Source of the DNA: Lentimicrobiaceae bacterium
GTDB lineage: Bacteria > Bacteroidota > Bacteroidia > Bacteroidales > F082
NCBI GenBank assembly: GCA_015061365.1
Contig: SUWS01000003.1
Location: 50,920 to 114,919, forward strand
Direction of reading: 5' to 3'
DNA length: 64,000 bases
Shown here: piece after piece, positions 3,091-63,134 of the stretch
Layout of the letters: each line of letters opens with the position of its first letter
Position numbering within the stretch: the stretch's first letter is position 1
Position numbers and translations under genes: made by a program
The notes under the pieces: generated by a model
Database searches by the model: none
Seen by the model: the letters and a program-made list of their open reading frames with translations, nothing else
What the model was told of the DNA's origin: nothing

Positions 3091-3450
3091 AGTTCAAAGT
3101 TCAAAAGCCTTGGTTCAATAAATCTCTCGCAGAGACGCAAAGGACGCGAAGTTCAAAGTTCAAAAGCCTTGGTTCAATAAATTTCTCGCAGAGACGCAAA
3201 GGACGCGAAGTTCAAAGTTCAAAAGTCTTGGTTCAATAAATTTCTCGCAGAGACGCAAAGGACGCGAAGTTCAAAGTTCAAAAGTCTTGGTTCAATAAAT
3301 TTCTCGCAGAGACGCAAAGGACGCGAAGTTCTAAGTTCAAAAGCCTTGGTTCAATAAATTTCTCGCAAAGACGCAAAGGACGCGAAGTTCTAAGTTCAAA
3401 AGCCTTGGTTCAAAGCTCAAAGTTCAAAGCTCAAAGTTCAAAGTTCAAAG
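3091..3450. repeat. Tandem array, 5 copies of a 59-bp unit, ending in (AAAGCTC/AAAGTTC)n heptamers
   Basis: ctcgcagagacgcaaaggacgcgaag begins at 3126, 3185, 3244, 3303, 3362 (exact 59-bp spacing). Confidence 0.95.
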
Positions 3451-5042: not shown

Positions 5043-8000
5043 ATGGGATTTTTAGCTAAACTCTTCGGTAATAAGGCATCGCGCGACAACAAAGCCTTGC
5101 AGCCGATTTTGGATAAGACATTAGAAGCTTATGAGAAAATAAAGAATTTAGATACTGACGCTCTTCGTCATAAGACAGTTGAGTTTAAGGAATATATCAA
5201 CAACTACATCGCTGACGACGAAGCTCGCATCAAAGAACTGAAACTGAAAGCTGAAGATGAAGACCTTGACCTCGAGAAGAAAAACGACATTTACGAACAG
5301 ATAGATAAATTGGAGAAACATGTCCTCGAAAGAATCGAGGAAGCTCTCAACAATATTATGCCTGAAGCTTTTGCTGTCTTGAAAGAAACAGCGAAACGTT
5401 TCAAAGAGAATGAGGTTGTAGAAGCGACAGCTACAGAATTAGACCGTGACCTCGCAGCGAGATTCGATCATATCAACGTTGAAGGCGACAAGGTTTATTA
5501 CGATAACAGCTGGGTTGCAGGCGGCAACACTATAACTTGGGACATGGTTCCGTATAACGTACAGGTCATTGGCGGTGCTGTCTTGCATCAAGGTAAGATC
5601 GCTGAGATGGCAACTGGTGAAGGTAAGACCTTAGTCGCGACCTTCCCTGTATATCTCAACGCTCTCGCAGGTCGTGGTGTTCACGTAGTTACCGTTAACG
5701 ATTATCTCGCGAAACGTGACTCCGAGTGGATGGGAACGATATATGAATTCCTCGGTCTCACCGTAGACTGCATCGACAAGCATGAGCCTAACTCACAGGC
5801 ACGTCGTAACGCTTATCTCGCAGACATCACCTACGGAACAAACAACGAATTCGGCTTCGACTACCTCCGTGATAATATGACAGGTAATCCAGAAGAACTC
5901 GTTCAACGAAAACACCATTTCGCTATCGTCGACGAGGTTGACTCCGTCTTGATAGACGACGCTCGTACACCTTTAATCATATCCGGACCGACACCACGCG
6001 GTGACCATCAAGAGTTCGACATATTGAAAGGAGACGTGGTGAAACTTTATGAAGCACAAAAACGTCTCGTGACTTTATGCCTCGCCGAAGCAAAGAAAAT
6101 ATTGACCGACCCTAATGCTACTGAAGACCAAAAACGTCATGGAGCCGACCAGCTTTTCCGCGCTTACAGAGGTCTTCCTAAAAACAACGCCTTGATTAAG
6201 TTCTTAAGCGAAGAAGGTATGAAGACCCTCATGCAGAAGACCGAAGGCTTTTATCTCCAGGAACAACAGAAAAATATGCATATCATCGACGATGAACTTT
6301 ATTTCGTCATCGATGAGAAACTTCATAGCGTCGACCTTACAGAGAAAGGTATCGACGAACTTACCAAAGCATACAACGACCAAACGTTCTTCATCTTGCC
6401 TGACGTAGGTTCTGAGATAGCCGAGCTCGAACGCAGCGAACTTCCTAACGACGAGAAACTGATGAAAAAGTCGGAACTGCTCCGCAACTATTCAGAGAAA
6501 TCGGAACGCCTGCATACAGTGCAACAATTACTTAAGGCATATACCTTGTTCGAAAAGGATGTCGACTATGTCATCATGGACAATAAGATTAAGATTGTTG
6601 ACGAACAGACAGGACGTATCATGGAAGGTCGTCGTTGGTCGGACGGTCTGCATCAGGCTGTAGAAGCAAAGGAAAACGTCCATATCGAAGCTGCGACACA
6701 GACATACGCGACAATCACTTTGCAGAACTACTTCCGTATGTATCATAAGTTGGCAGGTATGACAGGTACTGCTGAGACTGAAGCCGGCGAGTTCTGGGAC
6801 ATCTATAAGTTAGATGTAGTCGTTATTCCTACCAACAAGCCTATCGCTCGTATCGACGCGGAGGATCTGATATATAAGACAAAACGTGAGAAATATAATG
6901 CCGTCATCGATAAGATAGAAGAGTTCGTTGCTGATGGTCGTCCTGTTCTTGTAGGTACGACATCCGTTGAGGTTTCAGAGCTTCTCTCCAGAATGCTTAC
7001 TCGTAAGGGCATCAAACATAATGTCTTGAACGCTAAGTTGCATGCCAAGGAAGCTCAGATCGTTAAAGACGCAGGTCAAGCTGGAACGGTAACAATAGCA
7101 ACTAATATGGCTGGTCGTGGTACTGACATCAAGTTGGGACCAGGAGTTAAAGAGGCAGGCGGTCTCGCCATCATTGGCACAGAACGTCACGAGTCACGCC
7201 GTGTTGACCGTCAGTTACGTGGTCGTTCAGGTCGTCAGGGCGATAATGGTAGCTCTCAGTTCTTCGTGTCGTTGGAAGACGACCTCATGCGTATGTTCGG
7301 CTCAGAACGTATTGCTCCTATCATGGATAAATTAGGTCTTCAGGAAGGCGAAGTGATCCAACACTCGATGATCACAAAACAGATTGAAAAGGCTCAGAAG
7401 AAAGTAGAAGAGAATCACTTCGGAACACGTAAGCATCTTCTTGAATATGACGACGTGATGAACTCACAACGCGAGGCGATATACGAAAAGAGACGCCATG
7501 CCTTGTTCGGAGAACGTCTTTCAATAGACATCAACAATATGATGTATGACCTCGGCGAATCGTTGATAGAGAAATATCAGGAAGTCAACGACTATGACGG
7601 ACTTAAATTAGAAATCATCTCCAAGATGGGTATCGATGTTCCTTTCGACGAAGACGAATTTAAACGCTCAAAACTCGATGTGCTCGCAGATAAGTTGTTC
7701 GAGACAGCATTGGAAGTCTATAACAATAAGACACGTATCATAGGTGAGAAGACACTTCCTGTGATAGAGAACGTTCATAAGAACACACAATATGAAAACA
7801 TCCTGATTCCGTTTACCGACGGTAAGAAGAGCATGAACGTGGTTGTCAACCTCAAGAAAGCTGTAGAAAACGGAGCGAGAGAAATAACATTGGCGGTAGA
7901 GAAATTCATTACGCTCGGCATTATCGACGAATCATGGAAAGAACATCTCCGCGAATTGGACGACCTTAAACAATCTGTAAGAAATGCGACTTACGAACAG

Positions 8001-8330
8001 AAAGATCCTCTCTTGATTTATAAATTCGAGTCGTTCAACCTGTTCAAACAGATGATACAAAAGATAAATACAGATGTGATCTCATTCTTGATGCGCGCCG
8101 ACGTTCCTATGCAAGACGGAAGTCAGGTGAGAGAACAAAGAGCGAGAGCCATCGACAGAAGCAGGCTGAAAGAACAACGCAACGACCTCTTGTCGCAAGC
8201 TCACAGCAACACACAAGAACGTCAAGTGACACAGCCTATTCACGTGGAGAAAAAAGTCGGACGCAACGACCCTTGTCCTTGCGGTAGCGGCAAGAAATAC
8301 AAAAACTGCCACGGAAAAGATGAATTATAG
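5043..8330 (+). CDS. secA: preprotein translocase ATPase SecA
   Basis: [40 protein letters not shown]-terminal zinc motif [14 protein letters not shown]. Confidence 0.98.
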
Positions 8331-8331
8331 A

Positions 8332-8425
8332 ATCTGAGAAACTGAAAATCTGAGAATCTGAGAATCTGAGAATCTGAAAATCTGAGAATTTTCTCAGGTT
8401 TTCAGGTTTTCAAGTTCTCAGATTT
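8332..8425. repeat. Octamer tract with orientation switch (TCTGAGAA)n...(TTCTCAGA)n between convergent secA and birA
   Basis: aatctgagaatctgagaatctgaaaatctgagaattttctcaggttttcaggttttcaagttctcagatttt. Confidence 0.9.
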
Positions 8426-9194
8426 TAAATACGATTTCCTTCAAATCACAAACGACTTCACGGTCGTTTTTTTCTTTTAAGATGAGACGACCAAATCTGT
8501 CATAACCAGTAATTATCATTTCTTTAACCTTACCTTCGTGTTCGTAAAAAGCCCACTGATTGTAGCGATACAATTTATCAGTGTAGAGATGTTGAAAATT
8601 GAAAGTTGAAAGTTGAAAGTTGAAAGTTGAGTTAATCGAATTGGAAGATGCCTGTTGTCTGTTGACTGTTGTCTGTTGACTAAGTTTATTGCATATCTCA
8701 TTCAATAACATTTCTAAATCATAATCCTTTCCCGTAATCATTTTCATCGAGATAGGATTCGGAAGACTTTCGTCGAAAGACGTTTGATTTACATTAAGTC
8801 CGATTCCAATGATGGAAGTACCAAGCATCACACCTTTGATTTCATTCTTTATCAAGATGCCTGCGATTTTTCTGTCGTTGAAATAAATGTCGTTAGGCCA
8901 TTTTATGAAAAGATTTTCTTCAGGAAGATAATTTTTCAAAACGTTAATCATGGCGACAGAAACCATCTGAGTGAGAAGAAACTGATCTTCGGCTTTGAGA
9001 AAACTCATATCAAGAGCTATGCTGAAAAGCAGATTCTTTCCATCTTCGCTTTGCCATATATTCCTCCCCTGCCCTTTTCCCGATGTCTGAAAATCGGTGA
9101 CGACAACATTATCAGCAACATCTTCACCTTTATCTAAAAGATTCTGAAGGTAAGAATTAGTAGAATCTATATTTTTGAAATGGGTTATTTTCAT
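8418..9194 (-). CDS. birA: biotin--[acetyl-CoA-carboxylase] ligase with in-frame heptamer-repeat insertion
   Basis: SGKGQGRNIWQSEDGKNLLFSI, KWPNDIYFNDRKIAGILIKNE; start at MKITHFKNIDSTNSYL. Confidence 0.92.
   Translation of the reverse strand: MKITHFKNIDSTNSYLQNLLDKGEDVADNVVVTDFQTSGKGQGRNIWQSEDGKNLLFSIALDMSFLKAEDQFLLTQMVSVAMINVLKNYLPEENLFIKWPNDIYFNDRKIAGILIKNEIKGVMLGTSIIGIGLNVNQTSFDESLPNPISMKMITGKDYDLEMLLNEICNKLSQQTTVNRQQASSNSINSTFNFQLSTFNFQHLYTDKLYRYNQWAFYEHEGKVKEMIITGYDRFGRLILKEKNDREVVCDLKEIVFKI
8591..8680. repeat. Heptamer repeats inside birA (TTGAAAG)n and (CTGTTGT/CTGTTGA)n
   Basis: gttgaaaattgaaagttgaaagttgaaagttgaaagttga ... cctgttgtctgttgactgttgtctgttgac. Confidence 0.95.
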
Positions 9195-9242: not shown

Positions 9243-9310
9243 ATAATGCACAATTCATAATGCACAATTTATAATTCATAATGCATAATTCATAATGCAT
9301 AATTTATAAT
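9243..9310. repeat. Heptamer tract (CATAATG/CATAATT)n
   Basis: aatgcacaattcataatgcacaatttataattcataatgcataattcataatgcataatttataat. Confidence 0.9.
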
Positions 9311-9356: not shown

Positions 9357-10040
9357 ATGAAAAAAATATTACTAATCTTTATTATCTGCATGATTTCGAC
9401 TTCATGCGTACACGATTGTATTCCGAGCAAAAAGAATGTTCGTTACGCACAATCAAACGATTATATAGAATGTATAGACGCTGAAGATTTGAAAGCATTG
9501 ATCACTTCAGACACTACTAAATATAAAATCGTTGTTTTCTATAGTGTGTGTTGCGGTCCATGCATGAGGCATTTTGAGGAAACTTATTCTCCCGCATACA
9601 ACAAATATAGTGACAGCATAAATTTCTATTTTATAAATTATAACACGGGCGGCGTAAGATATGCCCGTGAACATCTTGAACAATACGGACTGTTTGATGG
9701 AAAAGCATTGTGCTTCTTAGACCTTGAAAATCCTGATTTCCACTACGACAATATTCAATATCTCAATAATATAGCGAACTATGTTTTCGATAGTGAACCG
9801 AAAATAAATGGAAATTTTGGAACTCCATGTGAATTCATCATAAGCAAAGACAACAATGTGCTGAAACAGCTCACCACTACGCCGACATCGGGATCTGCTT
9901 TCACAACGATGCAGTTATGGCAAATCGAAATCGACAAGATAAATGAAATAAATTTTGACTCTATTTACAGACAAGACATAGAGTTTGATTTATTTAACGA
10001 ACTACCTGTATGCACCGACGAACATTGTCCAATATTTTAA
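9357..10040 (+). CDS. thioredoxin-like lipoprotein with CGPC active site
   Basis: lipobox MISTSC; FYSVCCGPCMRHFEE. Confidence 0.7.
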   Translation: MKKILLIFIICMISTSCVHDCIPSKKNVRYAQSNDYIECIDAEDLKALITSDTTKYKIVVFYSVCCGPCMRHFEETYSPAYNKYSDSINFYFINYNTGGVRYAREHLEQYGLFDGKALCFLDLENPDFHYDNIQYLNNIANYVFDSEPKINGNFGTPCEFIISKDNNVLKQLTTTPTSGSAFTTMQLWQIEIDKINEINFDSIYRQDIEFDLFNELPVCTDEHCPIF

Positions 10041-11188: not shown

Positions 11189-13189
11189 ATGGAGAACAAC
11201 AATCCTTTTGGAAATTTTTCAAACGACAAAAACGACAACAAACCAAAAAAGAAGTTCAATTTTTATTGGATCTATGTAATCTTGACGGCGGTATTTCTCG
11301 GTTCTATATTTTTCAACGGACCGAAAAGCGCGGAAGAAATCGACAAAGGCAAATTAATCACATTACTGAAAGACAGAGATGTCGAGAAGATTGACCTCGT
11401 CAACGGAGAAGTTGCGGAGATCTATCTTAACGAGTCGGGAATGAACAAATATTTCCCTAACGATAAATCTAACGCTTTCAACCAAATACCGAACTACACA
11501 TTCCGCATAGGTTCATTGGAACGTTTCGAACAAGACATTGAAGCCGCACAGGAAGGTTTCGCCGATCCCGTTTACGCCAATATGGTTAAACGTCACAACT
11601 GGGGAAGTGAAATCATCTCATGGATCTTACCTATTTTATTAATATTCGGATTCTGGTTCTTGATAATAAGAATGATGGGACGCAACGGAGGTGCCGGCGG
11701 CGGAGGTAACGTCTTCAATATCGGTAAGTCGCAGGCTAAACTTTACGACAACGCTTCTGATGTTAAGGTCACATTTAAAGACGTTGCCGGCTTGGAAGAA
11801 GCGAAAGAAGAAGTGGTTGAAGTGGTCGACTTCCTCAAGAATCCTAAGAAATATACACGTCTCGGCGGCAAGATTCCGAAAGGCGTTTTGTTGGTAGGCC
11901 CTCCTGGTACAGGTAAGACATTATTAGCCAAGTCTGTTGCCGGTGAAGCTAACGTTCCTTTCTTCAGCATCTCAGGTTCCGACTTCGTAGAGATGTTCGT
12001 TGGCGTGGGTGCTTCGAGAGTGAGAGACTTATTCAAACAGGCAAAAGAAAAGTCACCGAGTATAATATTTATTGATGAGATCGACGCCATAGGTCGCGCT
12101 CGTAGCAAGAGCCCGATGAGCGGTGGTAACGACGAAAGAGAAAGCACCTTGAACCAGCTCCTTACAGAGATGGACGGATTCGGCACTAACTCAGGCGTCA
12201 TCGTCATAGCAGCGACAAACCGCGCCGACATCTTAGACAAGGCTCTTATGCGTGCCGGACGTTTCGACCGTCAGATCTACGTCGAACTCCCTGACCTCAT
12301 CGGCCGTAAGGAGATTTTCGAGGTACACATGCGTAAGCTCAAACTCGCCGATGATGTCGACAAAGAGTTCTTAGCAAAACAGACACCTGGATTCTCGGGA
12401 GCCGACATCGCTAACGTCTGTAACGAGGCTGCTCTCATCGCGGCACGTCGTAACAAAGAATCTATCGAGAAACAAGATTTCTTAGACGCCATCGACCGTA
12501 TCGTCGGCGGTCTTGAAAAGAAAAATAAGGTCATCACCGATTCAGAGAAAAAAGTCATCGCTTTCCATGAGGCGGGTCATGCCACAACGAGCTGGCTTTT
12601 GGAGTTCGCTCATCCTCTCGTAAAGGTCACCATCGTTCCTCGCGGCAAGGCTCTCGGCGCAGCATGGTATCTGCCTAACGAACGCCAGATCACCACAAAA
12701 GAACAGATGTATCATGAGATGATAGCTACACTCGGAGGTCGCGCCGCTGAACAACTCATCTTCGGTCATATATCCACCGGCGCGCTTAGCGACTTGGAAA
12801 AAGTTACGAAACAAGCTACGGCAATGATCGCTTATTATGGATTGGACGAAAGAATAGGTAACAGAAGTTATTACGACTCGACAGGTCAGCAAGATTATGC
12901 TCTGACAAAACCATTCAGCGAGAAGACCGCGGAAATAATCGACGAGCAAGTAAGCAAACTTATCGAGAGCGCATATCAAGAAGCTCTTAGAATATTAGGC
13001 GAAAATATCGACGGACTGACACAACTCGCCAACAAACTCATCGACAAGGAAGTGGTTTTCGGCGACGACCTTGAGATGATATTCGGCAAACGTCCGTGGG
13101 TCAAAGAGGAAATTGATTTTCCGAAAGAAAGTCAACAGACAACAGACAACGGACAACAGTCTGAGTCGACAGAAGAGAATTTAGTTTAA
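11189..13189 (+). CDS. ftsH: ATP-dependent zinc metalloprotease FtsH
   Basis: GPPGTGKTLLAKSVAGEA, HEAGH protease motif. Confidence 0.98.
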   Translation: MENNNPFGNFSNDKNDNKPKKKFNFYWIYVILTAVFLGSIFFNGPKSAEEIDKGKLITLLKDRDVEKIDLVNGEVAEIYLNESGMNKYFPNDKSNAFNQIPNYTFRIGSLERFEQDIEAAQEGFADPVYANMVKRHNWGSEIISWILPILLIFGFWFLIIRMMGRNGGAGGGGNVFNIGKSQAKLYDNASDVKVTFKDVAGLEEAKEEVVEVVDFLKNPKKYTRLGGKIPKGVLLVGPPGTGKTLLAKSVAGEANVPFFSISGSDFVEMFVGVGASRVRDLFKQAKEKSPSIIFIDEIDAIGRARSKSPMSGGNDERESTLNQLLTEMDGFGTNSGVIVIAATNRADILDKALMRAGRFDRQIYVELPDLIGRKEIFEVHMRKLKLADDVDKEFLAKQTPGFSGADIANVCNEAALIAARRNKESIEKQDFLDAIDRIVGGLEKKNKVITDSEKKVIAFHEAGHATTSWLLEFAHPLVKVTIVPRGKALGAAWYLPNERQITTKEQMYHEMIATLGGRAAEQLIFGHISTGALSDLEKVTKQATAMIAYYGLDERIGNRSYYDSTGQQDYALTKPFSEKTAEIIDEQVSKLIESAYQEALRILGENIDGLTQLANKLIDKEVVFGDDLEMIFGKRPWVKEEIDFPKESQQTTDNGQQSESTEENLV

Positions 13190-13214
13190 AGTTTAAGGTT
13201 TAAAGTTTAAGGTT
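13131..13214. repeat. Heptamer repeats forming the ftsH 3' end and following spacer
   Basis: gtcaacagacaacagacaacggacaacagtc, then gtttaaagtttaaggtttaaagtttaagg. Confidence 0.9.
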
Positions 13215-13257
13215 GAGATTCAAGACCTTACTTTAAACCTAATTTTATTTAATACAA

Positions 13258-13923
13258 ATGAGTGTCTTCGGATATAATAAAGATTGTACAAGTAAGGAGC
13301 AGATCCTCACAAAGGTTCGTGAAGCTATCTTGGAGAAAGACGAGAAGCATTTCTCAACGATAAATCTTCAAGATGACACTTGGCTGCCTTTTGATGAAGA
13401 AGACGGTGCTGAGTTCACTTTCGTCAAACGTTTCAAGGAAAACGGCGGCATCTTCATGTATTTCGAAGAGATGGAACATTTCAAAGAGGCCATGCAACAG
13501 TTCGTTGCTGAGAATAATTGGTCACCGCTACTTACGACAAGCCCTTATATTAAAGAGATATTCGCCGACAGCGAGATAGAGTTTTCCGACGACTACAGAG
13601 ATATGGAACGTAAGAATAAAGTCAGCATTATTGATTGTGAGTGCATGATAGCGCAGACGGGCAGCATTATGGTTTCTGATGCGACAGCCGGTTCTCGTGC
13701 CGCTTACGCTTTCGCCGATACTCTTATAGTTGTGGCTCATCCTTCTCAGATTGTGGCTAAGATGAAAGACGCCTTCTGGCTGATGAAAGAAAAATACTGC
13801 GACAACCAGCCCGCTATCATGACGATAATAAGTAGGTCGACACGCAGTACAGATATCGAAAACACATTGGTTATAGGCGCATACGGATTCAAGCAGATAG
13901 CGTTATTCTTGGTAGAAGAATAG
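13258..13923 (+). CDS. LUD domain (LutC/YkgG-like) protein
   Basis: CECMIAQTGSIMVSDATAGSRAAYAFADTLIVVAHPSQIV. Confidence 0.75.
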   Translation: MSVFGYNKDCTSKEQILTKVREAILEKDEKHFSTINLQDDTWLPFDEEDGAEFTFVKRFKENGGIFMYFEEMEHFKEAMQQFVAENNWSPLLTTSPYIKEIFADSEIEFSDDYRDMERKNKVSIIDCECMIAQTGSIMVSDATAGSRAAYAFADTLIVVAHPSQIVAKMKDAFWLMKEKYCDNQPAIMTIISRSTRSTDIENTLVIGAYGFKQIALFLVEE

Positions 13924-13927
13924 ATAT

Positions 13928-15028
13928 TCAGCCATTCATCCGTTTGGTTAGTTCCTCCACAAACTTAAATTCGCTGAGCAGCTGCTTCGCGATTATTCTT
14001 ATCAAAGTATACACAGGAATGGCTACAATCATTCCGACAACACCGCCAATATTTCCAGCCATCAAGATAACTAAGAATATCTCAATAGGATGTGCAAAGA
14101 CGCTTTTTGAATAAATAGTAGGTTGTAAGACGAAGTTGTCAACAGCATTGGCTGCTACAAATACTCCTATTATTTCCAAGGTGTTAGGTAAAATCAGATC
14201 GTAAGCACCTATGCCAAGATTTGATATAATGCCTATTATGACTCCTATGCAACCGCCCATCAACGGACCGAGATAAGGAACGATATTCATGAAACCTCCT
14301 ATTACAGCTATAATCAGGGCGTTCTCCACACCGAAGATTGTAAGGCCTAAGAATATCAATATCATCATGCATAATAATTCAGCAATCAATCCGAACATAT
14401 AACGTGTAAGCATCTCTCTTGAATCGTGGAGTATGTTCTTCATACGCAAGGTTTGTTCGTCAGGAGTTATAGCCATGAAGATATTATGAACTATCTGTGG
14501 ATCCTTTAAGAGGAAAAATGTCAGAAAAACTGTAGAGAATAAGCCGATAACAAAAGAACTTGTCTTAGATACTATGCCTCCGACAACGCTACGTATATTA
14601 TCCCAGTTGGCTATGGAATATATCTTTGCTTCAATAACATTCAGGATATTTTCTTCAGGTCGTATGATATTATATTGGATGAGTAAGTCGTAGATATGCT
14701 CTATCGGTTTCTCGAAATAAGCTACTATGGCGTCGGTGTCGATATTTGATAATATTATGATTTCCTTGTTTATCAATGGTATGATGAATAAGAAAATAAG
14801 GGAGAATATCAGAAACATCACTGCCATGGTTATGACAGCCGAAGCTGAATCGCCGAGATGTAACTTTTTAATATGAATTTTTTTGAGTCTTTCGCATAAT
14901 GGACGACCGAGCATTGATAAGATGACTGCCATAGCGAAATATATGAATATATCTGGAAAGAAATATATCAATGCTCCGGCAGCTAATATTCCCGCGACAG
15001 GTTTTATGAAAGATATTATTTTGTTCAT
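13928..15028 (-). CDS. AI-2E family transporter
   Basis: multi-TM; FGLIAELLCMMILIFLGLTIFGVENALIIAVIGGFMNIVPYLGPLMGG. Confidence 0.85.
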   Translation of the reverse strand: MNKIISFIKPVAGILAAGALIYFFPDIFIYFAMAVILSMLGRPLCERLKKIHIKKLHLGDSASAVITMAVMFLIFSLIFLFIIPLINKEIIILSNIDTDAIVAYFEKPIEHIYDLLIQYNIIRPEENILNVIEAKIYSIANWDNIRSVVGGIVSKTSSFVIGLFSTVFLTFFLLKDPQIVHNIFMAITPDEQTLRMKNILHDSREMLTRYMFGLIAELLCMMILIFLGLTIFGVENALIIAVIGGFMNIVPYLGPLMGGCIGVIIGIISNLGIGAYDLILPNTLEIIGVFVAANAVDNFVLQPTIYSKSVFAHPIEIFLVILMAGNIGGVVGMIVAIPVYTLIRIIAKQLLSEFKFVEELTKRMNG

Positions 15029-15243
15029 CTGCGTAAATATAGGGGATTTCTATAAATTGCTTTGCAAGTGATTTATGAATTTTTCTTTGAGAAGATTTTT
15101 GTTTATCTTGAGAGAACATAGCGAGCTATGTGATTGAAAGATAGACGAAAATATTCCAAGAAAAAACATAAAGCACGCAAAAGTTCCTATCATAATTGTC
15201 ATAATTTATTTAAACGGGGAATTTATAGAAGTCCCCTATAAGT

Positions 15244-20648: not shown

Positions 20649-21686
20649 ATGATAGTAATAACTGGAGCAGCGGGTTTCATCGGCAGCGTAGTCGCAGGTG
20701 AACTTAATAATAGAGGTCGTAACGATTTAGTGTTAGTCGATGATTTCTCTAAGAAACAGAAGGAGAGAAATTATATTGACTTAAGATATAATGTGCTGAT
20801 TAATAGAAATGACTTCTTCGATTGGTTCGAGGAAAATCATTATTATGTAGATTTCGTGGTTCATCTCGGAGCTCGTACCGATACTACGGAATTCGACTGG
20901 AACGTGTTCCAGAAACTCAATGTCGATTATACTGAGACGATGTTTTCCTTATGCGCTGAATATCAGATCCCGTTGGTATATGCTTCATCGGCTGCGACAT
21001 ACGGCAACGGTGAGTTAGGCTATGACGACAGTCACGAGGTGGTGGAGAGATTGCAACCTTTGAATCCTTACGGACGTTCTAAGAATGAAGTCGACAAATG
21101 GATTTTGAAACAAGAGAAACAGCCGCCTTTCTGGGCAGGTTTAAAGTTTTTCAACGTCTATGGTCCTAATGAATATCACAAAGGACGTATGGCTTCTGTC
21201 ATATTCCATTCGTTCAATCAGATAAACGCTACAGGAAAGGTGAAGTTGTTCCGCTCGCATCGTCCGGATTTCGAAGACGGACAACAACTCCGCGACTTTA
21301 TCTATGTTAAAGACATTGCTAACGTAATCTGTTTTATGATGGAAGGTCAACAGACAAAAGTCAACGGACAACAGACATCGTCCACAGAAAATTTCAATTC
21401 TCAACTTTCAACTTCCAATTTAAAGAGCGGTATCTACAACCTCGGTACGGGAAAAGCACGCAGTTTCTATGACTTGGCAGCTGCTACTTTCAAAGCGATG
21501 GGAAAAGATGTTAATATCGAATTTATCGACATTCCAGAAGACATAAGAGATAAGTATCAATACTTTACCGAAGCCAATATGACAAAACTTAGAGATGCCG
21601 GCTACGATAAAGAATTCACTTCATTAGAAGATGGCGTTGAGGATTATGTGAAGAATTATTTGAGGGATTTTATAGAAGTTCCTTAA
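20649..21686 (+). CDS. hldD: ADP-L-glycero-D-manno-heptose-6-epimerase-like (SDR) with in-frame heptamer-repeat insertion
   Basis: ITGAAGFIGSVVAGELNNRGRNDLVLVDD, YASSAATYGNGELGY, FIYVKDIANV, SGIYNLGTGKARSF. Confidence 0.85.
   Translation: MIVITGAAGFIGSVVAGELNNRGRNDLVLVDDFSKKQKERNYIDLRYNVLINRNDFFDWFEENHYYVDFVVHLGARTDTTEFDWNVFQKLNVDYTETMFSLCAEYQIPLVYASSAATYGNGELGYDDSHEVVERLQPLNPYGRSKNEVDKWILKQEKQPPFWAGLKFFNVYGPNEYHKGRMASVIFHSFNQINATGKVKLFRSHRPDFEDGQQLRDFIYVKDIANVICFMMEGQQTKVNGQQTSSTENFNSQLSTSNLKSGIYNLGTGKARSFYDLAAATFKAMGKDVNIEFIDIPEDIRDKYQYFTEANMTKLRDAGYDKEFTSLEDGVEDYVKNYLRDFIEVP
21346..21420. repeat. Heptamer repeats inside hldD
   Basis: gtcaacagacaaaagtcaacggacaacagac ... caattctcaactttcaacttccaa. 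Confidence 0.9.
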
Positions 21687-26293: not shown

Positions 26294-26365
26294 ATTATTT
26301 TATTTTTTTATCAATAGACAACAGACAACGGTCAACAGCTTTTTGTTTGAAATCTGAATATTTGG

Positions 26366-26447
26366 GCGTTCCGGCTATCGCCGTCGGGCTTTCCGCTATA
26401 TCTTTTTCCGCTACGCTACAAAAGGATGCCGCTTCAATCCCTAACGC
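26366..26447 (-). repeat. 82-bp dispersed repeat, copy B (inverted relative to 415-496)
   Basis: see 415-496. Confidence 0.9.
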
Positions 26448-26593
26448 TCTTTTGAGGCGTGGACATGAAACGGGAGCAGAGTGCCGAGACTGATTTACAA
26501 TTCAAATTAGACGCATCAATTTCCCTTTTGTCTCTTGTCTTTAGTCAGTTTTAAATATTAAAAAAGTCGCCACATTGTGACGACTTATCTGTT

Positions 26594-41157: not shown

Positions 41158-41895
41158 TTACCAATCTTTTAATGACCTTCTTTTTTGCATCTTAGATGCT
41201 TTTTTGTCATTCATTTCTTCCATTGTTTCTTTCTCTTGATTCTCGAGAGCTTTTAACATTCGCTCAGCATCTTCTTTTGAAAGTTCCTGCTGTTGTTGCT
41301 GCTGCTGTTGTTGCTGCTGTTGATCTTGTTGCTGTTGATCTTGTTGCTGTTGCTCTTGTTGTTGCTCTTGTTGCTGCTCTTGTTGCTGCTCTTGTTGCTG
41401 CTCTTGTTGCTGCTCTTGCTGTTGTTGATCTTGCTGATTTTGCTGTTGATTCTGTTGCTGTTGTTGAATCATTTTCCAGCGGGCATATTCAAGATTATAC
41501 CTTGCATCCTCATCGTTTGGATTGAGTTTCAGGGAATTTTTATATGCCTCGAAGGCTTCTCCATATCTTTCCTGTGCCATCAAAGTGTTACCTAAATTGT
41601 AATATGCGCCAGATTCAATTTCTTTAGATGTTTCTCTTTTTGTCAATTCTGAGAAGTTTTTTTCAGCATCTTCATAGTTACCTTGCGAATATAAAGCATC
41701 ACCTAAATTGAATTGTGCTTTTGGATTGTAATCTTTATCCAATGATTTTCTGTATTTTATTTCGGCTTCCGAATAGCTGCCTTTCTTGAAGTCATTGTTT
41801 CCTTGTCTGATAAGGGCTTTGTCATTTTGTGCTTGTGCGCAGAAACAAGCTGAGACAAAGAAAAAACAGATGCATATTTTACTTATCGTTTTCAT
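41158..41895 (-). CDS. batC: BatC-like TPR protein with poly-Gln linker
   Basis: TPRs then (Q3-4 E/D/N)n tract; start at MKTISKICICFFF. Confidence 0.82.
   Translation of the reverse strand: MKTISKICICFFFVSACFCAQAQNDKALIRQGNNDFKKGSYSEAEIKYRKSLDKDYNPKAQFNLGDALYSQGNYEDAEKNFSELTKRETSKEIESGAYYNLGNTLMAQERYGEAFEAYKNSLKLNPNDEDARYNLEYARWKMIQQQQQNQQQNQQDQQQQEQQQEQQQEQQQEQQQEQQQEQQQQDQQQQDQQQQQQQQQQQQELSKEDAERMLKALENQEKETMEEMNDKKASKMQKRRSLKDW
41284..41470. repeat. CAA/CAG microsatellite-like tract encoding poly-Gln in batC
   Basis: ttgttgctgctcttgttgctgctcttgttgctgctc... Confidence 0.95.
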
Positions 41896-61865: not shown

Positions 61866-63134
61866 TTAGCATTTACTTCCTAAAACTAACACTTTCTTAT
61901 CTCCTTTCATCGTGGTTCCGAAGATGTAGAAATCGTCGCCGTCTTTGAAGCCGAGATGCTTCCTCAACTCCTCCGCTGATAATGGAAAGTTGCGGACTGC
62001 GATACTTACCTTCGATAAAGATTGTTGTCCGTAGTCTGTTGTCTGTTGACTTAAAATCTTCTTCGCCTTCTTGTCAAAAGGGACAACATTAATAACTTCA
62101 AAGGTTCTTCCTGGGAAGTCGGTAACTAATTCATCGGAGGTGTAGAGATGACTGTTTCTATGTAATTTCTTGATATTAAATCTTTGCGACAATAACTTAA
62201 ACGGAGCCGCTTTCATACAAGCCACCCCCGGTTCGTAAAGATATTTTCCTATCTCATCAGCGAAAGTAGGAACTGTCTCTTGTTCCTCATCTTCACTAAA
62301 AGTAAAACTCCAGTTTTCTCGAAGGTCTATTGTTATGAGCTGTGAGCAAGCTTTGGATGAAGTCTGTTGTCCGTTGTCTGTTGTCCGTTGACATAAAACC
62401 AAAACTTCTTTGCATTCATTCTTCACCGCTACGACATGTATCTCCTTAATATTTTTTAACTCTTTCTTAATGATGTCGATGTCGAGCATGGGAGAGAGTT
62501 TTACGATGACGGTATTCGTCTTTTCAAATAACAAATTTTGCAGCTCCGCCACATCGGGACTGCAGTCGTGAAGAGAAACCATCTTACGTCCGTATTCATC
62601 TCTGCGAGCAGGATCTAGATAGATGCAATCGACATTGTCACATTGAGAAAGGAAGTCTTCTGCTTTGGCATTGACGACTTTAATACTTTTATTTAATACT
62701 TTGAAATTATGACGTGCCAACTCACAGAGTTCTTCTTGTGCCTCGATGTAAATCGTCTCATCGAAATTATCAGAAAGATAAGCAGTGTCAACGCCCATTC
62801 CTCCGGTGAGGTCGATGAGAGTTCTTTTTCCTCCCACAGATTGACACTGATTTTCACTGATGTTACATTGTGCCTCTTCGTCTCTGTGACTTATAGTCCT
62901 TTTATATTTTGCTGTCAACTCTGACGAGCATTGTTCCAAAGATAGTCGCTTCGGGAAAAGCAACTCATCGTTCTCCGACCAAGAAGGCAACTTCTTCTTC
63001 AGCATCTGTCTCGCTTGTATCTGTCGTATGACGAATTGTTTATCAATGTCATCTGGAAACTTCGACAATGCTAACTTATTGACATCGTCGTTAAGATGCA
63101 CGTTGATAAAATCTTTGGTCAATTCATGATTCAT
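61866..63134 (-). CDS. class I SAM-dependent methyltransferase, THUMP-like C-terminal domain
   Basis: LIDLTGGMGVDTAYLSDNFDETIYIEAQEELCELARHN; YLDPARRDEYGRKMVSLHDCSPDV. Confidence 0.85.
   Translation of the reverse strand: MNHELTKDFINVHLNDDVNKLALSKFPDDIDKQFVIRQIQARQMLKKKLPSWSENDELLFPKRLSLEQCSSELTAKYKRTISHRDEEAQCNISENQCQSVGGKRTLIDLTGGMGVDTAYLSDNFDETIYIEAQEELCELARHNFKVLNKSIKVVNAKAEDFLSQCDNVDCIYLDPARRDEYGRKMVSLHDCSPDVAELQNLLFEKTNTVIVKLSPMLDIDIIKKELKNIKEIHVVAVKNECKEVLVLCQRTTDNGQQTSSKACSQLITIDLRENWSFTFSEDEEQETVPTFADEIGKYLYEPGVACMKAAPFKLLSQRFNIKKLHRNSHLYTSDELVTDFPGRTFEVINVVPFDKKAKKILSQQTTDYGQQSLSKVSIAVRNFPLSAEELRKHLGFKDGDDFYIFGTTMKGDKKVLVLGSKC
62023..62050. repeat. In-gene heptamer repeat (methyltransferase)
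   Basis: tgttgtccgtagtctgttgtctgttgac. Confidence 0.85.
62361..62391. repeat. In-gene heptamer repeat (methyltransferase)
   Basis: agtctgttgtccgttgtctgttgtccgttgac. Confidence 0.9.

Follow-up and report, generated by a model that had tools for sequence, protein, structure and literature searches.

The birA gene and its two repeat arrays

The window, a stretch of 64,000 nucleotides from the draft genome of an uncultured Lentimicrobiaceae bacterium (115 contigs; hereafter G000), carries on its minus strand at 8418–9194 an intact birA gene for biotin--[acetyl-CoA-carboxylase] ligase (258 residues), whose frame is open from the ATG at 9194 to the stop at 8418. The predicted protein scored above the cut-offs of both the TIGR00121 equivalog (125.1 bits vs. 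83.1) and Pfam PF03099 (BPL_LplA_LipB; 80 bits vs. 21), and an ortholog alignment showed that its conserved core residues and its C-terminal G-R-L and K-E motifs are retained, as the first-pass annotation had noted for the sequence flanking the insert. A Foldseek search with the AlphaFold model of the protein (mean pLDDT 93.7) ranked biotin protein ligases first, with a best E-value of 6.6e-19.

Within this open frame, at 8591–8681, lie two tandem arrays read on the minus strand. Array 1 (8652–8681; 30 bp, identified with TRF as about four copies of CTGTTGT) has an exact four-unit architecture of CAACAG(A/T), reading GT-CAACAGA-CAACAGT-CAACAGA-CAACAG on the birA strand, and encodes SQQTTVNRQQ (residues 172–181). 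Array 2 (8591–8630; 40 bp) consists of four identical AACTTTC units followed by AATTTTC and a partial unit, encodes STFNFQLSTFNFQ (residues 189–201), and was reported by TRF as 5.7 copies of the unit GTTGAAA/TTTCAAC with 93% matches. Between them, translation and the ortholog alignment place a non-repeat spacer (8631–8651, minus strand) that encodes ASSNSIN (residues 182–188) and is perhaps what remains of the original loop. It had been proposed from the letters alone that birA contains an in-frame double repeat encoded by two heptamer families also found in spacers, and our repeat scans uphold this. The earlier estimate of about 30 repeat-encoded residues has to be lowered: two arrays are indeed present, but they account for ~23 residues, on either side of a 7-residue non-repeat piece.

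On the structure model the insert falls on the two helices that join the catalytic and C-terminal domains, where the pLDDT drops to ~76–77. As it sits in this linker helix pair the enzyme should still work, and we infer from sequence and model that BirA with its insert is active. The net gain over BirA orthologs is just 13 residues (39 nt), because array 1 replaces helix residues and is not added to them. The insert RNA has no predicted structure (z = −0.23). Shifting the arrays by one unit brings an early stop in either other frame, with loss of the C-terminal domain; as a one-unit change would thus truncate BirA, the frame is presumably under selection.

birA orthologs and the surrounding DNA

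The extra 13 residues were present only in G000 and absent from all 28 other Bacteroidales BirA orthologs that we aligned. No close ortholog carried the same segment with unrelated codons, a finding that would have spoken against an insertion; however, in the nearest relative, G009 (73–78% identical), this linker is occupied by another heptamer array, CAACAGC x4, without a net gain of that size. The birA observation is thereby confirmed and its reading as an insertion supported, while the main finding is the wider pattern in the genome described below.

Repeats also flank the gene. Upstream of birA, TRF identified an AATTCAT/AATGCAT heptamer array (9243–9310, no strand assigned), and at the same site in the alignment with G009, the G009 birA has a CTGTTGT array adjoining a -7 box, which a promoter scan located. 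Downstream of birA the sequence is repeat-rich in both species. In G000, inverted octamer arrays of the AATCTGAG family occupy 8329–8426 (no strand assigned; TRF hits at 8329–8389 and 8394–8426) between secA and birA, which converge here. Their RNA forms a strong hairpin (−51.6 kcal/mol, z = −9.1 on the plus strand; −35.4 kcal/mol, z = −4.5 on the minus strand), which is probably a bidirectional terminator that ends both transcripts. Many variants in its paired arms allow G-U pairing, and of the two strands that of secA gives the better fold.

Arrays in other genes

Similar in-frame arrays were found in other genes. The hldD gene (20649–21686, plus strand; ADP-glyceromanno-heptose 6-epimerase, TIGR02197 at 365 bits vs. 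274.6) has, like birA, a double array in one loop: CAACRGW x4 in the four-unit architecture, encoding QQTKVNGQQT (21348–21377, plus strand), and a second array of the TTTCAAC family, encoding NFNSQLSTSNL (21392–21418, plus strand), both identified by TRF and ortholog alignment. This loop has a single length in 19 orthologs and is enlarged only in G000 and G009, the latter having there a GACACCGA octamer array as opposed to the CAACRGW and TTTCAAC arrays of G000. A SAM-dependent methyltransferase-like protein (61866–63134, minus strand), which had no NCBIfam match and whose function is predicted from sequence motifs, has two in-frame CAACRGW arrays in two loops (TRF and ortholog alignment): CAACRGW x4 in loop 1, encoding QRTTDNGQQT (62362–62390, minus strand), and a CAACAGW-type array in loop 2, encoding SQQTTDYGQQS (62023–62048, minus strand). 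Both loops hold other repeat families in G009. In a third loop of this protein, G006 (L351) has a palindromic GAGACGcactgcaatGCGTCTC-type element in frame within the coding sequence, which resembles those beside many intergenic arrays (GTAGAGACG...).

In TsaB, a loop with an AGTTCAA-type stretch in G000 has an exact 35-bp AAGAC(C/T)AC array in G009, and in a second loop G008 has inverted heptamers of its own, also in frame. FtsH includes in its C-terminal tail a CAACRGW x4 array in the four-unit architecture (13133–13160, plus strand; ESQQTTDNGQQSESTEEN) that translation and comparison with G009 showed to be common to both species. Further open genes with arrays, their inserts read from translations, are those for RfbB, RimO, ClpB, a subtilisin-like protease and T9SS-sorted proteins; of these, the protease and a single T9SS-sorted protein were compared pairwise with G009 at the DNA level. 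We claim insertions solely where the host gene has an ortholog alignment. All of these host genes stay open, those having a curated model match it, and they are mainly housekeeping genes without a surface-antigen theme. At a different locus, L152, an 820-aa ORF (12307–14769, minus strand) that ends in a TPR-like and helix-turn-helix-like region has an N-terminal half packed with ~15 heptamer/octamer arrays; either capture has gone unusually far here or the start was mis-called.

Array properties across the genome

For the census we used 444 kb from G000 and up to 627 kb from G009, with one genome per species. At a strict threshold the 444-kb G000 sample had 88 period-7 and 21 period-8 arrays and only 0–3 arrays for each of the periods 5, 6 and 9–12, while block-shuffled sequence at the same score threshold had no period-7 arrays; period 7 is thus in excess over the other periods, and the arrays are far above chance expectation. 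A looser TRF scan placed 21 of 127 period-7 arrays inside genes, a count that is approximate since it rests on a heuristic ORF scan, and the majority between genes.

Array lengths for periods 7 and 8 peak at 28–36 bp, with a detection limit of ~21 bp, and the preferred form is four units plus a few bases, about 30–36 bp. CAACRGN arrays had four units in 45 of 54 cases, three in the remaining nine, and never more. Among the 41 AAGACTAC arrays of G009, 18 were exactly 35 bp long, 30 ended and 29 started in the same phase. Longer arrays do occur, a few at 60–120 bp, in the AAGACTAC and other families, so four units are a strong mode and not a law. The coding copies share the architecture of the intergenic ones (e.g., 35 bp for the G009 TsaB insert and 30 bp for birA array 1). 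Variation between units is limited to a few positions (4, 5 and 7 for CAACAGA), and neighbouring CAACRGN units alternate beyond chance, being equal in 54 of 135 pairs where 77 were expected. The broad spread of unit numbers and the alike neighbours of contingency loci were therefore both missing from the CAACRGN arrays.

The families are largely private to a species. Exact matches to three CAACRGN units numbered 318 in G000 and 36 in G009, with 0–1 in each of 38 other genomes; conversely, three AAGWCNAC units had 191 matches in G009, two in G000 and none elsewhere. The chief families of G000 are CAACRGW, GTTGAAA, AAACTAT, AACAATT, AATTATG and AATCTGAG, and the dominant families differ between these two sister species. 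A preference for period 7 is seen in other Bacteroidota too, where the arrays measure about 31 bp and consist of different units. The genome-wide extent of the arrays, their near-fixed size and their species-private families go beyond what the first-pass annotation described.

The window holds repeats of other kinds as well. A 59-bp unit is repeated 5.5 times at 98% at 3091–3413, with two AGTTCAA heptamers per unit, and a 12/24-bp repeat (TGCTGCTGTTGT) extends over 180 bp at 41288–41466, its period being divisible by three, unlike the heptamer class. A dispersed repeat of ~200 bp with inverted ends (TATAGGGGAtTTCTATAAATT ... AATTTATAGAAGTCCCCTATA) at 15038–15241 looks like a MITE and has at least 35 matches in G009 (84–96% identity), often at contig ends; another, of ~90 bp and containing GGGCGTTCCGGC and CGCTACGCTACAAAAGGATGCCGC, lies at ~26353–26459, also with at least 35 matches in G009.

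Proposed in-frame capture of dispersed arrays and its alternatives

The reading that we favour, though with only moderate confidence, is the in-frame capture of dispersed 7-/8-bp elements of near-fixed size whose families turn over fast between species. The birA insert would then comprise a pair of elements from a population of short dispersed repeats that extends over the whole genome, each a near-fixed stack of about four 7-/8-bp units with few degenerate positions per unit. Such elements would arrive or arise throughout the genome and mostly land between genes, and would be kept within a gene where they are read without a stop, change its net length by whole codons and fall at a permissive site (a loop, linker or tail). 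At one locus, one family could be replaced by another between sister species. Most of the genus is without arrays at the loops where the sister species differ, and the different families at the same loops suggest either an old insertion that was later rewritten or repeated insertion at a few permissive loops.

The most serious rival holds that these are ordinary heptanucleotide microsatellites that grew in place by slippage from chance seeds, those in genes having stayed in frame. Period 7 is the commonest long-unit class in many bacteria, for which slippage has been proposed as the cause in the work summarised in PMC4679880, and both the few arrays of 60–120 bp and the four identical AACTTTC units of birA array 2 are in keeping with it. 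Nevertheless, slippage alone predicts a variable unit number and alike neighbours, and the best-measured family has neither: its unit number is nearly constant, and its adjacent units resemble one another less than chance would give, the opposite of what slippage produces. In addition, a small set of heptamers occupies hundreds of places within one species and scarcely any elsewhere, and the CAACRGW arrays of unrelated viral contigs, with their 4 to 8 mostly identical units, differ from those in the genome. We thus disfavour slippage and regard it as unlikely.

Since hundreds of sites share the same heptamers, we prefer a spread by copying from a template, i.e., template switching or conversion from other arrays, which would act in place of or beside local slippage. 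Other routes fared less well. Whole-array copies were not clearly over-represented (21 identical pairs vs. 16 expected, p = 0.13), so a simple copy-and-paste from a master array is not supported. The flanks of CAACRGW arrays looked unrelated save for the bases adjoining the array ends, which does not fit a larger carrier element. CAACRGW x4 matched 12 viral contigs, in runs of 4 to 8 mostly identical units, with no clear link to carriage by phages, and a AAGACNAC search of viral contigs returned no matches. A RAYT-type Y1 transposase, considered as the writer, has one copy each in G000 and G009 and more in several relatives, with no correlation seen. Overall, the array flanks and transposase candidates that we examined revealed no carrier, target-site duplication or array-moving enzyme, and the alternation of units fits none of the spreading models considered. 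As a bolder and more tentative proposal, which we hold to be less likely than not, some Bacteroidota might harbour an unrecognised miniature element of ~four degenerate 7-/8-bp units (~30–36 bp), often with a fixed end phase and written from a template, whose families sweep through each species on their own and take each other's place at the same sites, internal loops of conserved enzymes included.

A second rival, which we consider improbable, takes the arrays to be selected DNA or RNA sites for binding or structure that need about four units, the coding copies being by-products or functional as well. The confinement of variation to a few unit positions is in keeping with this, as are several features outside genes. 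In 10 of 187 cases an array with forward-strand TTG sits immediately upstream of the Bacteroidetes -7 box (TAnCTTTG), with one on the other side, the promoter of the G009 birA being among the ten, and the inverted arrays between secA and birA make a strong hairpin. In Chitinophaga solisilvae (L140), three long hairpins (~1494–1640, 5725–5845 and 9773–9920) have a 31-bp heptamer array as their base, with arms complementary unit by unit; in each copy a variant unit on one arm meets its match on the other, so that pairing is kept through the variants. On the other hand, these ten are a small part of the 187 arrays, the dominant families differ between sister species, a regulatory role hardly accounts for arrays within conserved enzyme loops, and the birA insert lacks RNA structure. 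Together these observations suggest that some arrays are put to use outside genes, roles that leave the coding copies unexplained.

A phase-variation switch in the birA arrays, with one heptamer gained or lost putting the C-terminal domain out of frame, is very improbable: in both other frames a stop would indeed follow the arrays closely, but biotin ligase is a housekeeping and usually essential enzyme, array-bearing genes are mostly of that kind with no surface-antigen theme, and we set this reading aside because the unit number is near constant genome-wide. Least credible is an assembly artefact, which a metagenome-derived draft of 115 contigs might invite, as every array-bearing gene that we examined is open, the separately assembled G009 has arrays of like design in the same loops, and arrays of 28–36 bp are far below the usual read length.

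Relation to known repeats and significance

Capture of dispersed repeats in frame within unrelated conserved genes is established for the Rickettsia palindromic elements (PMC10969869), and the in-frame insertions in birA, hldD, tsaB, the methyltransferase gene and the ftsH tail resemble them in this respect. They differ in that Rickettsia elements are palindromes of ~100–150 bp while ours are direct repeats of 30–40 bp, about a quarter of that size, and in that here another family occupies the same loop in the sister species.

Closer in form are the TAACTGA heptamers of Beggiatoaceae, some Cyanobacteria and five Bacteroidetes (MacGregor 2015, PMC4679880). They form 169 sets in one genome, mainly intergenic with few inside ORFs and sporadic across lineages, in 2–6 copies (up to 43 in some species) that are mostly just upstream of start codons, and their coding cases are mostly at protein ends or in hypothetical proteins. 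Our arrays are likewise many, tandem, heptameric and mainly intergenic with few in ORFs; however, there a single heptamer is involved, and here many families of near-fixed four units reach into internal loops of housekeeping enzymes. TAACTGA itself is not among the main G000 families, and among the loci that we examined it formed an array solely in the relative G010. A period-7 excess is also known for long simple sequence repeats with units of 5–11 nt (Mrazek et al. 2007, as cited in PMC4679880 and PMC4692102), and, like the Xanthomonas GGGAATC repeats, such arrays differ in length and sequence between close relatives at the same intergenic sites; they are treated as slippage-prone or as G-quadruplexes, whereas the arrays here have alternating units, no G-tracts and, in the best-measured family, a near-constant unit number. 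In the TAACTGA and heptanucleotide-repeat literature consulted, we found no report of a fixed unit number or of internal loops of conserved enzymes, and we found no account of such arrays in Bacteroidales in the open-licence literature.

The short tandemly repeated repetitive (STRR) heptamers of cyanobacteria occur, among other places, in the stem of a tRNA-Leu intron. They share with our arrays the variation of heptamer arrays within a tolerated loop of a gene, but there the loop is RNA and here it is protein, and we know of no fixed unit number for STRR. To our knowledge, Rickettsia supplies most examples of selfish or simple repeats that lie in frame within housekeeping genes. Here the repeats are very short, near-fixed in unit number and private to a species, with sister species holding different families in the same enzyme loops. 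They offer a natural series in which the gain and rewriting of new protein loops can be studied, and, since slippage alone should not yield a constant four units with alternating variants, they make the old question of why bacteria prefer 7-bp repeat units testable.
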